Of a stretch of DNA of 64,000 nt, positions 2,279 to 7,129 are shown in pieces. How positions within the stretch are numbered: position 1 is the stretch's first letter; each line of letters begins with the position of its first letter. The stretch is from assembly GCA_947627715.1 (NCBI GenBank), contig CANQXK010000001.1:62001-126000 (forward strand). The letters run 5' to 3'. Under the pieces are notes generated by a model. That model was not told the DNA's origin. It worked only from the letters and a program-made list of their open reading frames with translations, and made no database searches. The stretch comes from an uncultured Oscillospiraceae bacterium (lineage in GTDB: Bacteria; Bacillota; Clostridia; Oscillospirales; Oscillospiraceae). The position numbers were made by a program, and so were the translations under genes.

Positions 2279-4858
2279 ATGTTTCAACCCCCGCGCCTGA
2301 CCAACGCAGGCAAGGCCCTCTACAATCGCACCCTCGCGGGCGAGGGCATCCAGTTCACCAAGATCAAGCTCGGCAAGGGCACCCTCACCGGCCCCATCGC
2401 CACCATGACCGCCCTCGTTGACCTCGTGACCGAGATCGACGCCTCCGTTTCCCAGACCGGCGACAACAGCTATGTGGACATCTCCGGCTCGTTCAGCAAC
2501 GCCGGGATGCAGGACGGCTTCTACTGGCGCGAGATCGGCCTGTTCGCCGCCGACCCGGAGGCCCCGGAGGAGCGCGAGCGCGACATCCTCTACTGCTACC
2601 AAAACGCCTATGACACCGCCGACTTCATTCCCGCCGCCAGCGTGGAGACCGTAGAGAAACACATCACCATCCCCGTCATCATCTCCGACGCCGAAAGCGT
2701 CTCCTGCCTCCTCGACCCCTCCCTCATCTACGCCACCAAGAAGGACATCGAGAACCACAACCTCGACCCGGAGGCACACCCGACCCTGCGGCATGACCTC
2801 CAAGAGCTGGACGAAACCCTCAGCGGCTACATGGAGACCACAGACTCCGCCCTGGAGGCCCAGGGACAGGCCATCACCAAGCAGGGACAGACACTCACCC
2901 AACACACCAGCGACGCAAACAGCCATGTTTCAGCCGCTGAAAAAGCGGCCTGGAACGGCAAGGCCGAACCCGGCGACATCACCACCGCCATCGCGGGCCA
3001 CAACGCCGACAAAGAGGCCCACCCGGACATCCGCGAGGAGCTGGGCAAGGTAAAGCAGACCGCCGACGACGCCCTCAAAGCCATCCAGGACTTCGCCTAT
3101 GTCATCAACGGCCTGCCGACGCAGAGCGGGGCGCTCATCTACAACGGGGAGGCGCAGGAACCCTCCTGGAACGGCTACAACACCGACGCCCTGGAGATCG
3201 GCGGCAAAATCAGCGCTACCGACGCCGGAGAGTACGAGGCGACCTTCACCCCGAAAGGGAAGTACCACTGGGAGGGCGGCACCACCGAGGCCCGGACAGT
3301 GACCTGGAGCATCAGCCGCCAGCCAATCACCACCACGCCCACGCAGAACGGCACCCAGGTCTACACCGGCGCACTCATCACCGCCGCCTGGACGAACTAC
3401 GACCCCATCAAGCTCACCATCGGCGGCGACTATACCGGCACCACCGCCAAGAGCTACAACGCCACCTTCACCCCGAAAGACAACTACTGCTGGAGCGGAG
3501 GGAACATCACCGCCAAGACCGTCGCCTGGAAGATCACCAAGGCCCCCGGCACCCTCAGCATCAACCCGACCACCGTGGCCCTCACCGCCAGCGCAACTCA
3601 GGTCGTCATCAAAGTGACCCGCGCCGGGGACGGCACCATCAGCGTGGAGAACGCCGCCACCGCCATCGCCACCGCAACCGTGGATCAGGCCGCCGCCACC
3701 GTCACCGTCAAGAGCGTCGGGCAGGCCAACGGCAGCGGCAAGATCACCATCAAGGTCGCCGAGGGTACCAACCACTTCGCCCCCACCGCCGTCACCGCAA
3801 ATGTGACCGCCGACTTCCCCAAGACCTACGGCGTCAAATGGAACGGCGGCCCGGAGACCACCTGGAGCCGCACCGACGCCGCCAGCGGCTTCACCAACCC
3901 CGTGCCCTATTACAGCGGTGCGAGCGCGTACAGCTCCCCCTTCGACAACCTCCAGCCCTGGGCCGGGATGAAGCGCACCACCGACAGCGCCCTCGGCGAG
4001 CTGGTCAGCATCCCGAAATACTGGTACAAGTGGACAAAGAGCGGCGCGACCATGACCCTCCAGATCTCCGACAAGGCGCAGGCGGGCTTCTCCGTTTCCC
4101 CCGCCCATGCAGACCGTGGCGACGGCAAGGGCGAGCGCAACACCGTCTATGTGGGCCGCTACCACTGCGCCAGCGGCTACAAGAGTACCACCGGCGCGGC
4201 GCAACAGGTAAGCATCACCCGCGCAAATGCCCGCTCGGGCATCCACAACCTCGGCGCGACGGCCTACCAGTACGACTTCGCCATGTACTGGACGATCATG
4301 ATGCTGTATTTAGTAGAGTTCGCCGACTGGAACGGGCAGAAGGTCATCGGCTACGGCTGCTCCGACAGCGGCAGCAAGAAGAACAACGGGCAGACCGACA
4401 CGATGCCCTATCACACCGGCACCACCGCAACATCCCGCACCTCCTACGGCTTCACCCAATACCGCTACATCGAGGGCCTGTGGGACAATGTGTTCGACTG
4501 GGTAGACGGCATCTATTTCAGCGGCGCGAACATCTACTGCATCAAGAACCCCGCCAGCTTCAGCGACACCACGGGAGGGACGCTGACCGGCACCCGGCCC
4601 ACCTCCAGCAACTGGATCAGCGCCTGGGGCATCCCGACCGCCTCCGGCTTCGGCTGGGCGCTCTATCCCTCGGAGGTAAGCGGCAGTGAGACGACCTATG
4701 TAGCGGATTACTGCGGCTACAACTCCTCCGGGGTGGTGTTGCGCGCTGGTGGCTACTACAGCCAGAGCCAGTACCACGGCCCCTTCTACCTCAACGGCAA
4801 CGACTCGGCCTCGAACTCGGGCAGCAACATCGGCTGCCGTCTCCAAAAACTCCCTTAA
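2279..4858 (+). CDS. Tail fibre protein (gpH-like) with DGR-diversified C-type lectin-like tip
   Basis: An 859-residue tail fibre and the target protein of the retroelement downstream. Residues 1 to about 165 match the tail-collar/DUF3751 attachment domain found at the start of P2 gpH-like fibres. About 165-275 is helical linker. About 277-420 holds two repeats like the gut-Firmicutes Ig-like surface modules (TPKGKYHWEGG and TPKDNYCWSGG mark them). About 421-515 looks like a BIG2 Ig-like domain. About 520-859 resembles the C-type lectin/formylglycine-enzyme fold used by DGR variable proteins, with GLWDNVFDWVDG inside it. Variable residues 813, 822, 826, 828, 830, 832, 842, 848 and possibly 855 lie in the last 50 residues. 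A strong ribosome site (AAAGGAGGAG) precedes the ATG. The product should bind the host surface with a changeable tip. Confidence 0.93.
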   Translation: MFQPPRLTNAGKALYNRTLAGEGIQFTKIKLGKGTLTGPIATMTALVDLVTEIDASVSQTGDNSYVDISGSFSNAGMQDGFYWREIGLFAADPEAPEERERDILYCYQNAYDTADFIPAASVETVEKHITIPVIISDAESVSCLLDPSLIYATKKDIENHNLDPEAHPTLRHDLQELDETLSGYMETTDSALEAQGQAITKQGQTLTQHTSDANSHVSAAEKAAWNGKAEPGDITTAIAGHNADKEAHPDIREELGKVKQTADDALKAIQDFAYVINGLPTQSGALIYNGEAQEPSWNGYNTDALEIGGKISATDAGEYEATFTPKGKYHWEGGTTEARTVTWSISRQPITTTPTQNGTQVYTGALITAAWTNYDPIKLTIGGDYTGTTAKSYNATFTPKDNYCWSGGNITAKTVAWKITKAPGTLSINPTTVALTASATQVVIKVTRAGDGTISVENAATAIATATVDQAAATVTVKSVGQANGSGKITIKVAEGTNHFAPTAVTANVTADFPKTYGVKWNGGPETTWSRTDAASGFTNPVPYYSGASAYSSPFDNLQPWAGMKRTTDSALGELVSIPKYWYKWTKSGATMTLQISDKAQAGFSVSPAHADRGDGKGERNTVYVGRYHCASGYKSTTGAAQQVSITRANARSGIHNLGATAYQYDFAMYWTIMMLYLVEFADWNGQKVIGYGCSDSGSKKNNGQTDTMPYHTGTTATSRTSYGFTQYRYIEGLWDNVFDWVDGIYFSGANIYCIKNPASFSDTTGGTLTGTRPTSSNWISAWGIPTASGFGWALYPSEVSGSETTYVADYCGYNSSGVVLRAGGYYSQSQYHGPFYLNGNDSASNSGSNIGCRLQKLP
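4702..4844 (+). repeat. DGR variable repeat (VR)
   Basis: A 143-bp segment at the 3' end of the tail-fibre gene that aligns without gaps to 5018-5160 (constant offset 316). Differences are at 4715, 4716, 4743, 4754, 4761, 4767, 4772, 4802, 4820, 4821 and 4842. At each of these the other copy has A. Eight are A-to-G and three A-to-T. Seven of the twelve AAC codons of the template are changed. The change at 4842 is 2 nt from the end of homology, so it could belong to an IMH/IMH* difference rather than to mutagenesis. The in-frame change set alters surface-type residues of the lectin-like tip. Confidence 0.96.
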
Positions 4859-4869
4859 AAGGGGGTTCG

Positions 4870-4893
4870 CCAAGGGGGATTTCTCCCCCTTGG
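4870..4893. other. Hairpin/cruciform downstream of VR
   Basis: A perfect 10-bp inverted repeat (CCAAGGGGGA/TCCCCCTTGG) closes a 4-nt loop, TTTC on the + strand and GAAA on the - strand. It lies 25 nt after the end of VR homology and 11 nt after the tail-fibre stop codon. No U-run follows, so it is a poor terminator. In the Bordetella phage DGR a hairpin just after the VR is needed for efficient retrohoming; this element has the right form and place. That role is inferred here. Confidence 0.7.
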
Positions 4894-5017
4894 CATCCAA
4901 ACCATCAGAACAAAACCCGCGCCCGCAATTCGCCACGGGCGCAGGGTACAAACTGGGGCTACTGCACCAGTAGTCCGGTGTTTCTTTCCGGTTTCGGTCT
5001 CTCCTTCTGGGCTTACG
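4894..5017 (+). other. Spacer between VR hairpin and TR; probable 5' part of template RNA
   Basis: No convincing gene is present. It contains short inverted repeats: CTACTG-CAC-CAGTAG at 4959-4973, and a GCCCG/CGGGC pair around 4921-4940. These could fold in the template RNA leader. In many DGRs an avd gene sits between VR and TR; the 124 nt here is too short to encode one. I see no clear -35/-10 promoter, so the template RNA may come from the late phage transcript. Confidence 0.4.
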
Positions 5018-5160
5018 AGCGGATTACTGCAACTACAACTCCTCCGGGGTGGTGTTGCACGCTGGTGGCAACTACAACCAGAACCAGAACCACGGCCCCT
5101 TCTACCTCAACGGCAACAACTCGGCCTCGAACTCGAACAGCAACATCGGCTGCCGTCACC
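5018..5160 (+). repeat. DGR template repeat (TR)
   Basis: The invariant copy of the 143-bp repeat. Read in the same frame as the VR it has 12 AAC codons and 2 CAC codons at or near sites that vary. Random replacement of the first two bases of AAC cannot create a stop codon, a recurring design of DGR templates. It is transcribed to RNA and copied by the reverse transcriptase with errors at adenines. Homology to the VR ends at 5160, with GTCNCC shared and divergent sequence after it. The short open frame across the TR is not a gene. Confidence 0.96.
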
Positions 5161-5342
5161 TTGCAGGCAAGCAAAGCCACCACACTTCTCAGGTCATCCG
5201 CGCCCCGGCGCTGTTGACATATAGATGGGTGCAGTAGTCGCACACCCCTCGGTGAAGATTTTGCGTAAGGGCACGACTTAGTACTCCCTCCATCCCGGAG
5301 GGCGCAGGAAACGCCGTGAAGCATCAAGGAGAAGTAAAGCCC
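5161..5342 (+). other. TR-RT spacer (template RNA 3' region)
   Basis: A 182-nt stretch between the template repeat and the chosen start of the reverse transcriptase. No gene is visible. In characterised DGRs the RNA downstream of the TR folds and primes cDNA synthesis together with the RT and Avd; this stretch is the natural candidate here, by analogy only. It includes GC-rich paired segments such as CGCGCCCCGGCGC near 5199-5211 and CTCCCTCCATCCCGGAGGG near 5284-5302. Confidence 0.4.
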
Positions 5343-6512
5343 GTGAAAAGAGCGAAAGACCTATATACAAAACTGCTTTCAGACGAAAACCTCGCGCTGG
5401 CGCTGGACGAGGTAAACCGCACCCACCGCTGGCGGCCCCATCACCGCCCGAACACCGTGGTCGCCTGGGTAGAGGCAAACAAGGAACAGCGCATCAAAGA
5501 CCTTCGGAGCATCCTGATTCAAGGCTTCTGCCCCGCCATCCCGACCATGAAGCGCCGCTGGGACAAGAGCGCCGGAAAGTGGCGCGACATCTACGAGCCG
5601 AAGCTCTGGCCCGACCAATACATCCACCACGCCGTCATCCAGGTATTACAGCCCGTGATGATGCGCGGCATGGATCGCTGGTGCTGCGGCAGTATCCGAG
5701 GCCGGGGCATCCACTACGGACAGGCCGCCATCAGGCGCTGGATGCGCGACGACCCCAAAGGGACGAAATACTGCGTCGAGCTGGACATCCATCACTTCTA
5801 TGAGAGCCTCCGGCCCGACCTGGTAATGGCCCGCCTAAAGACCCTCGTAAAAGACCGCCGCTTCCTCGGCGTCGTCTGGGCCGTCATCAAGGACGGCATC
5901 CTCATCGGCGCATATTTCAGCCAATGGCTCGCCAACACCTTCCTCCAGCCCCTCGACCACCTCATCCGGCAGGGCGGCTTCGGCGTGGCGCATTTCATCC
6001 GCTACATGGACAACTTCACCATCTTCGGCCCCAACAAGCGGATGCTCCACCGCCTCATCACCGCCATCGGAAACTGGCTCGGCGAACACGGTCTCAGGAT
6101 AAAGGACAACTGGCAGCTATTCCGCACCTCCTTCACCGCCAAGGTGGAGCGGGCGCACCAACACCTGGAGGAGCGCAAACAGCGCCACCGCAAGCCGAGA
6201 CTGCCGACCGCCCTCGGCTACCGCTACGGCGAGGGCTACACCCTACTCCGAAAGCGCAATCTATTCCGGCTCAAACGGCAGCTCTCCAGCTACTACAAGC
6301 GCGTGACGCGCGGCCTCACCATCGCCATCACGATGGCCCAGGGCCTCCTCTCCCGCCTCGGGCAGCTAAAACACTGCAACGCCCAGCACATCTTCGCCCG
6401 CTTCGTCAAGCCTAAGACCCAGCGCAATCTGAAAGCAATAGTCAGGGCCTACGCCCGGAAGGAGAGAGCAAAATGGACTACATCTTCGGCACCGTCGCCC
6501 GCAACGGCGTGA
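5343..6512 (+). CDS. DGR reverse transcriptase
   Basis: A 389-residue reverse transcriptase of the diversity-generating retroelement type. Motif A is VELDIHHFYESL with Asp148. The motif usually written QGxxxSP in other RTs is IGAYFSQ (residues 188-194), the DGR hallmark form. Motif C is YMDN at 221-224, so the second Asp of YxDD is Asn224. The C-terminal thumb region is basic. I chose GTG at 5343 because the protein then begins MKRAKDLYTKLLSDENL, like other DGR RTs, with AAGGAG 11 nt upstream; GTG at 5316 would add 9 residues. The 3' end overlaps the next gene by 40 nt in another frame. It copies the TR RNA into cDNA that replaces the VR. Confidence 0.93.
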   Translation: MKRAKDLYTKLLSDENLALALDEVNRTHRWRPHHRPNTVVAWVEANKEQRIKDLRSILIQGFCPAIPTMKRRWDKSAGKWRDIYEPKLWPDQYIHHAVIQVLQPVMMRGMDRWCCGSIRGRGIHYGQAAIRRWMRDDPKGTKYCVELDIHHFYESLRPDLVMARLKTLVKDRRFLGVVWAVIKDGILIGAYFSQWLANTFLQPLDHLIRQGGFGVAHFIRYMDNFTIFGPNKRMLHRLITAIGNWLGEHGLRIKDNWQLFRTSFTAKVERAHQHLEERKQRHRKPRLPTALGYRYGEGYTLLRKRNLFRLKRQLSSYYKRVTRGLTIAITMAQGLLSRLGQLKHCNAQHIFARFVKPKTQRNLKAIVRAYARKERAKWTTSSAPSPATA

Positions 6513-7129
6513 CGGTCGAGAACCTAAAGACCGTGGGCGAGGCCCACACCGACCTCGACGGCTTCCAGCAGGTCGTGAGGAAGTACCCCGACAGCATCGC
6601 CATCGACAACTTCCGCATCGTCGAGAAGTACCACACCGACACCGACGCCGAGGGCACCTGTTACGACTGGTACATCATCGACAGCCACAACAGCTATGTG
6701 GACAAGTACACCCCCGCCGCCGCCACCGTCCAGCAGGCGCAAGAGGCCGCCGCCATCACCTTCGTCACCCTCGCTGAGACCGGCAGCGTGGACGCCGTGA
6801 CCGCCGCCGAACACGCCGACCTGTTCAGTCCCTGGGCCTATCCCGTCGCATATACCGAGGGACAGCTCCGGCAATACAACGGCAGGCTCTACCGCTGCAT
6901 CCAGCCCCACACCTCCCAGGCCGACTGGACGCCCGACGCCGCCGTCAGCCTCTGGGCACCCGCCTCCGACCCCGCCGAGGAATGGCCCGAATGGTCGCAG
7001 CCGGTCGGAGCCTTTGACGCCTACCCCCAGGGCGCAAAGGTAACGCACAAGGGCCACCGCTACACCTCGGACATCGAGAACAATGTCTGGGAGCCGGGTG
7101 TCTACGGCTGGACGGAGGCCGAGGGATGA
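6473..7129 (+). CDS. Tail-associated protein with two chitin-binding-like (CBM5/12) modules
   Basis: A 218-residue protein. Residues 1 to about 110 have no match I recognise, but include an Ala/Gln-rich helix near 80-100. Residues about 130-165 (GQLRQYNGRLYRCIQPHTSQ... then SLWAPAS) and about 180-218 (AFDAYPQGAKVTHKGHRYTS... then WEPGVYGW) look like two CBM5/12-type carbohydrate-binding modules, with conserved Tyr/Trp spacing. It probably decorates the tail or helps adsorption. Its start overlaps the RT gene by 40 nt; GGAAGGAGAGAG just upstream supports this ATG. Translation therefore seems coupled to the RT. The function is inferred from the modules and position. Confidence 0.7.
   Translation: MDYIFGTVARNGVTVENLKTVGEAHTDLDGFQQVVRKYPDSIAIDNFRIVEKYHTDTDAEGTCYDWYIIDSHNSYVDKYTPAAATVQQAQEAAAITFVTLAETGSVDAVTAAEHADLFSPWAYPVAYTEGQLRQYNGRLYRCIQPHTSQADWTPDAAVSLWAPASDPAEEWPEWSQPVGAFDAYPQGAKVTHKGHRYTSDIENNVWEPGVYGWTEAEG

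Follow-up and report, generated by a model that had tools for sequence, protein, structure and literature searches.

In the diversity-generating retroelement (DGR) of the Bordetella phage BPP-1 (bRT, Avd and Mtd), a reverse transcriptase (RT) gene stands with a template repeat (TR) and a variable repeat (VR), and the VR, in which variation is restricted to adenines of the TR, forms the 3' end of a receptor-binding gene. PMC3240598 and PMC6642488 also describe a GC-rich hairpin with a 4-nt loop after the VR. Faecalibacterium phage FP_Epona and Butyrivibrio phage Arawn likewise carry an RT gene beside a TR and an adenine-restricted VR, and a DGR is present in a prophage of Butyricicoccus pullicaecorum DSM 23266. 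Here we describe a locus in a stretch of 64,000 nt from an uncultured Oscillospiraceae bacterium (contig CANQXK010000001.1, positions 62,001 to 126,000; hereafter the window). This locus is a DGR and shares the repeat, target and hairpin features named above for BPP-1, but its RT departs from the BPP-1 enzyme at the active site. By its predicted protein it belongs to a large lineage with two replacements: Asn for the second catalytic Asp of motif C, and a small residue, in nearly all cases Ala, for the Phe of the motif-E 'FLG'.

In the DiGReF survey, both motif-5 aspartates are given as essential and as 100% conserved in DGR RTs (PMC3521204). In a later survey, SQ occurred with Y(V/M)DD in 57 members of a 62-member DGR clade, and the remaining five varied in SQ (PMC4244168). 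The window RT lacks one of these two aspartates: its motif 5 reads RYMDNFTIFG, that is, YMDN instead of YMDD, and the same holds throughout its clade. Full-text searches returned, among the matches listed and outside subscription journals and supplements, no paper on a YMDN or YxDN box or on a primer-grip or second-aspartate change in DGR RTs. The features on which the comparison depends are the following.

4702 to 4844, + strand: VR, at the 3' end of the target gene; its last few bases are probably outside the copied tract.
5018 to 5160, + strand: TR, with 37 adenines; AAC makes up 12 of its 47 codons.
5343 to 6512, + strand: RT gene, 389 aa, probable start GTG at 5343 (the reading frame is open from GTG 5316); PF00078 at 2e-12 and phrog_1423 at 9.5e-69, both on the longer frame.
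6012 to 6014, + strand: AAC codon, Asn replacing the second Asp of motif 5 (YMDN).
6210 to 6212, + strand: GCC codon, Ala replacing the Phe of the motif-E FLG (reads PTALGYRYG); it covaries with the Asn.

The start of the RT gene was chosen from an AAGGAG site and a conserved MKR start. A first-pass annotation of this DNA had recognized a DGR-type motif 4, IGxxxSQ, in the RT, and this motif, in general form (I/V/L)GxxxSQ, is present as LIGAYFSQ in the RT beside the TR; the altered motif 5 had escaped it. The window RT matched a chain in 8ub7 (E 2e-9), which we take to be the BPP-1 RT, and in that alignment YMDN and ALG stand against YMDD and FLG. The Epona and Arawn RTs also differ, with YMDD and 29–33% identity to the window RT. 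The B. pullicaecorum RT (locus L158), which is about 51% identical and comes from another host, has YMDN, and an adenine-restricted TR/VR pair is present in L040, a locus with the same RT as L158.

Relatives were drawn from IMG/VR scans, genome surveys and phage records. Among the distinct aligned RTs at least 45% identical to the window RT, itself included, YxDN was found in 96 of 96 (YMDN in 89, YIDN and YLDN in 2 each, and NMDN, QMDN and YVDN in 1 each). Identity was measured over at least 200 columns, and three close RTs truncated at the box (L100, L170 and L174) were left out. The nearest YxDD RT among the matches listed was 39.4% identical. One IMG/VR scan used the peptide YMDNFTIF as its pattern and is therefore biased toward the box and no test of its conservation. 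The box-free IMG/VR scans instead used alignment A1, which ends before the box and was built from the window, the loci of the YMDNFTIF scan and L065 (best 80 of 241; 34 loci in the second scan). In loci that came from box-free searches alone, YxDN was present in 90 of 90 distinct RTs. The YxDD comparators are the best 80 of at least 576. A sequencing error or a recent decay of the RT is ruled out, because Asn is present in every one of the 96 distinct close RTs.

Two further YxDN clades were found besides clade I, the window's own lineage. Clade II (L044, its second record L061, and L263 to L277), which was gathered with patterns lacking the box, has ICQW at motif 4. Clade III consists of L048, L235, L237, L245 and L262; at motif 4, L048 and L262 have SPW, whereas L235, L237 and L245 have SQW. 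A careful tree of 76 RTs gave the three clades support of 100/100, 100/100 and 100/99. The D/N labels require at least two changes on this tree, and none of 200 bootstrap trees needed only one. The trees held mainly DGR-type RTs and were made with the box residue masked and residue 299 unmasked; L052, L053 and L057 were left out of the careful tree.

Of the columns in which clade I conserves a residue that YxDD RTs rarely have, only 233 and 299 (numbered from 5316; Asn 224 and Ala 290 of the window RT in its 389-aa form) are common to all three clades. These were counted in 245 distinct RTs, with five rows gapped at 233. In the 112 RTs with Asn at 233, residue 299 was Ala in 110, Ser in 1 and Cys in 1, and was therefore small in 112 of 112. 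In those with Asp at 233, it was Phe in 107, Tyr in 11, Met in 3, Ile in 2, Trp, Leu and Ser in 1 each, and a gap in 2, which makes it large in 125 of 126. In 'FLG', which we take to be motif E, residue 299 is the Phe. Motif E is described in PMC4634563 as the primer grip, which positions the primer 3' end. Residues 233 and 299 may touch in the fold. In the sister YxDD group (L173, L176 and L177, all genome contigs) motif 4 reads TSGW, not SQ, and the TR/VR pairs are still adenine-restricted.

Asn at the second motif C position is known from other polymerases. According to PMC4634563, Asn takes the place of this Asp in working polymerases of Birnaviridae and Mononegavirales, mutating the motif C Asn of Mononegavirales abolishes activity, and polymerases changed at the second motif C Asp are weakened or use metals differently. 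These viral polymerases are not RTs, and their likeness to YMDN is an analogy only. Catalysis by the window RT would continue with a changed metal site.

The repeats of the window show the adenine pattern of a DGR. The VR and TR align over 143 bp, gap-free, at 92% identity, on which a repeat finder and direct alignment agree. All 11 mismatches are at TR adenines (8 A>G and 3 A>T), as the first-pass annotation had stated. Given 37 TR adenines, the chance that 11 of 11 mismatches all hit an A is about 1e-7. A search of the window's own genome found only these two copies of the repeat. The last base of the target's stop codon, at 4858, lies 14 bp past the VR, and the TR is located outside the target, between the target and RT genes. 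The TR had been described as largely AAC codons, which is overstated at 12 of 47; the associated point about stops holds, as no change at any TR adenine can make a stop codon. The motif CGYCTCC occurs near the 3' end in 75 of 85 distinct clade-I VRs, as compared to 3 of 85 TRs, and the last mismatch of the window (A at TR 5158, T at VR 4842) falls in this 3' tail. This mismatch is most likely a standing difference outside the copied tract rather than a mutation. Because the tail differs between nearly all TRs and VRs of the clade, about 10 mutations remain, all 10 on TR adenines.

The same restriction was found in relatives. Clade I, with 85 distinct TR/VR pairs, had 1174 of its 1207 mismatches on TR adenines; the corresponding counts were 88 of 95 in clade II, 36 of 42 in clade III, 64 of 65 in the sister YxDD group and 1279 of 1317 in other YxDD loci. 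The last 20 nt were trimmed for these counts, and the adenine fractions are partly selected, because pairs were accepted only at 70% A or more. In its first run the TR/VR finder accepted 117 of 148 YxDN loci and 81 of 106 YxDD loci. No pair was accepted at 58 of 259 loci, many of them at contig ends and a few with repeats that are not A-rich. The pair counts were unchanged under a stricter test for copies.

Ongoing VR diversification was found in relatives that share a TR. In two contig pairs, L022/L105 and L139/L140, the TR is the same and the RT genes are 100% identical, and in each the VRs differ at 14 TR adenines and 1 other site. L110 and L108 (same TR, RT 99.8%) have 20 VR differences at TR adenines and 1 elsewhere, and L153 and L154 (same TR, RT 99.0%) have 16 and 0. 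Summed over the ten distinct pairs of YxDN contigs that share a TR, the VRs differ at 183 TR adenines and at 22 other sites. An eleventh pair repeats a contig (L101 is L022's contig) and would bring these to 202 and 27. Some contigs occur in more than one pair, and the pairs are therefore not independent of one another. Seventeen of the 22 differences elsewhere fall in three pairs with L038, because the L038 VR carries the TR haplotype of L018. Six YxDD pairs with the same TR gave 77 and 3 differences, respectively. The RT genes are under purifying selection, with dN/dS of 0.03–0.16 where dS exceeded 0.05 and was finite. The window DGR is probably a working one.

Two further observations concern the repeats of the relatives. 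The L038 VR (5277 to 5419; TR 5619 to 5761), with the TR haplotype of its relative L018, appears as if it had been written by another TR or moved by recombination. Six viral contigs (L007, L011, L013, L015, L019 and L028) have their start near the TR, within about 50–540 bp on the upstream side of the RT match, which perhaps reflects assembly failure at a hypervariable repeat.

Structures were predicted on both sides of the TR, in the DNA after the VR and in the RNA that would contain the TR.

4848 to 4867, + strand: hairpin 1 after the VR, 8-bp stem (one T.G) and 4-nt loop TAAA containing the stop codon; DNA fold.
4869 to 4894, + strand: hairpin 2 after the VR, perfect 11-bp GC-rich stem and 4-nt loop TTTC (GAAA on the other strand); DNA fold.
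4957 to 4968, + strand: 5' arm of a 12-bp RNA helix bracketing the TR; compensatory changes.
5228 to 5239, + strand: 3' arm of the same 12-bp RNA helix; compensatory changes.
5243 to 5331, + strand: RT-18 RNA (Rfam RF03021), 62.2 bits as compared to a gathering score of 41.3; directly upstream of the RT, between TR and RT.

Taken jointly as a DNA fold, the two hairpins gave a z of -4.05 against shuffles, and a hairpin after the VR that beat 95% of shuffles was found at 68 of 85 distinct clade-I loci. For phage DGRs, PMC3240598 gives GC-rich stems of 7–10 bp with 4-nt GRNA loops, 4–34 bp after the VR. The loops here, TAAA and TTTC, differ from the sense-strand GRNA reported for BPP-1.

The long-range helix formed by 4957–4968 and 5228–5239 was recovered by unconstrained RNAalifold in both of two alignments, and its pairing is kept through two-sided changes. 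These alignments, of 10 and 19 sequences, were picked because a simple helix search had shown the helix in them. A search of 20 related loci, which include copies of one element, detected RT-18 at 17; L048, L066 and L068 were the exceptions. It was present in clades I and II, at a single locus of clade III (L235, a marginal match) and at two YxDD loci, L043 and L176, and it accompanies the YMDN RT of the B. pullicaecorum prophage. Epona carries an RT-4 RNA in a like place. The Rfam match in the window spans neither the TR nor the helix that closes it. From its place here and its presence at the related loci, RT-18 seems to form the 3' portion of a DGR RNA.

The spectrum of the changes at TR adenines varies between the clades. 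A>C accounts for 32 of 1174 changes in clade I (2.7%), as compared to 277 of 1279 (21.7%) in other YxDD loci, and the second A of AAC had become C in only 4 of 828 cases in clade I. In PMC12875486, the BPP-1 RT in E. coli placed G opposite the adenines of NAC in 26.8%, which corresponds to A>C. Serine codons in clade I are TCY and AGY in a ratio of 2:179, as compared to 43:84 in YxDD (p 9e-17). This skew lies within a single amino acid, so amino-acid selection alone does not explain the low A>C. The contrast with YxDD loci and the serine skew could be taken to mean that the Asn itself alters misincorporation. However, A>C reaches 10 of 36 in YxDN clade III and is 7 of 64 in the sister YxDD group (5 of 88 in clade II), so that low A>C does not track Asn. 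A causal role of the Asn in the spectrum is therefore improbable and, with the link broken by these two groups, unsupported.

A second peculiarity of clade I concerns C>T at the first base of TR CAC codons, which was found in 15 of 181 cases, as compared to 1 of 557 for other CA codons and 2 of 2228 for other C (3 of 2785 for all other C). In YxDD loci it was found in 1 of 79. Cases involve TR CAC codons such as that at window 5058–5060, and loci L006, L014, L018, L022 and L041. L022 and L024 have identical TRs, and T at CAC is present only in L022's VR. Drift of the TR may account for the C>T changes in CAC codons.

The explanation that best fits these results overall, and one we regard as very likely, is a phage DGR with an RT of the YMDN, small-299 lineage, an RNA helix and RT-18, which diversifies a fibre tip. 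The ends of the DGR RNA would be closed by the conserved long-range helix, followed by the RT-18 structure, and the RT would copy the TR part, misincorporating opposite template adenines. The window RT itself would make the cDNA, which would replace the VR at the 3' end of the tail-fibre gene, beside the downstream hairpins, and the fibre tip would vary as a result. Such variation may alter receptor binding or host range. The mechanism had been said in the first-pass annotation to follow from known DGRs such as that of BPP-1; it is not simply transferable, because the second catalytic Asp is absent and motif E is changed. We consider it reasonably probable that DGR RTs switched between YxDD and YxDN at least twice, together with a switch between a large residue and a small one at the motif-E Phe, to give a rebuilt, working, adenine-mutating active site, possibly with another metal or primer-end geometry, the RNA being clamped by the helix and RT-18.

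Several observations weigh against this explanation. In the simple helix search, 17 of about 79 loci lacked a helix in the usual position that scored above its shuffled controls. The window's own genome gave no match to PF05635, the Avd-type family, at E up to 1, in a search confined to that accessory type; in this the locus differs from BPP-1. The element had been called complete, and while TR, VR, RT and hairpins are all present, completeness is not established in view of that missing match. In clade I, 33 of 1207 mismatches are not on TR adenines, 18 of them C>T. The evidence for recent change in the VR comes from relatives of the window's phage. Lastly, a second RT is encoded in the window genome, and several in other host genomes, which for loci in bacterial genomes speaks for an alternative in which an RT from the host or a co-resident phage acts in trans and the YMDN protein merely binds RNA. 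The one other RT of the window genome is, however, of the UG17 defence type, beside an RT-associated SLATT protein (G000:C72, locus L312, 1006 to 2877, - strand). Only one RT was present in each of nine virus records searched, though several of these are fragments. Furthermore, the RT alignment A5 shows no variation at the Asp of motif A or at the first Asp of motif C. We regard action in trans as improbable.

The YMDN RT could also be dead or decaying, the VR pattern being a fossil of an earlier YMDD enzyme. Such a reading draws on the weakening of many polymerases by a change at the second Asp (PMC4634563) and on the fixation of both Asp residues reported in the DGR survey cited above (PMC3521204). 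It is opposed by the Asn in all 96 close RTs, by the low dN/dS, by identical RT genes beside diverged VRs and by the motif-E change coupled to the Asn, with two or more origins, and is very improbable. Fibre tips evolve fast, and yet variation by selection or ordinary mutation with no DGR at all is contradicted by the adenine restriction and by identical TRs and RT genes beside divergent VRs, and can be dismissed.

If a working DGR RT with the altered box is accepted, it would show that nature has solved RT catalysis in a second way. The Asn lineage makes it testable which parts of the RT active site serve synthesis and which set the adenine errors, and the narrow spectrum of clade I, with little A>C, provides a natural comparison for what fixes the error spectrum. 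Searches that require YxDD would miss or discard YxDN elements.

The gene that ends in the VR lies directly upstream of the TR.

2279 to 4858, + strand: target gene, an 859-aa tail fibre with an N-terminal tail-collar-fibre domain and a C-terminal variable domain ending in the VR; open reading frame, PF12571, PHROG, hhalign.

The first-pass annotation had called this protein a gpH-like fibre. The gpH label rests on PF12571 at 22.8 bits, just below the 23-bit cut-off, and on the tail-fibre families phrog_7037 and phrog_5302. The last 320 aa show 43–69% identity to 24 relatives (alignment A8). With A8, a profile search found no PDB chain and a Pfam scan no credible family. An hhalign comparison with the 'BPP-1-like major tropism determinant' of Faecalibacterium phage Epona gave a probability of 73% and an E of 3e-5, a moderate match to an annotated protein.

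The target gene is found behind the baseplate genes W/gp25, J and P2-I-like. Farther upstream on the same contig are terminase, portal, head protease, neck, sheath and tape-measure genes, and a CBM5/12 protein, a holin and an amidase are encoded downstream of the DGR. The surrounding head, neck, sheath, tape-measure, baseplate and lysis genes indicate a contractile-tail prophage. Epona has the same gene order (baseplate J, P2-I-like tail protein, fibre, target, RT, lysis genes). The placement of the DGR in a prophage tail-fibre locus, as originally proposed, is therefore confirmed by the phage genes around it and by relatives with the same TR/VR/RT layout, in which variation is almost confined to TR adenines. 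The gene for the CBM5/12 carbohydrate-binding protein (window 6473 to 7129) overlaps the 3' end of the RT gene. A Mom-like DNA modification gene (L314, 3912 to 4658) is located about 16 kb upstream of the window start on the same contig, apparently in the same prophage.

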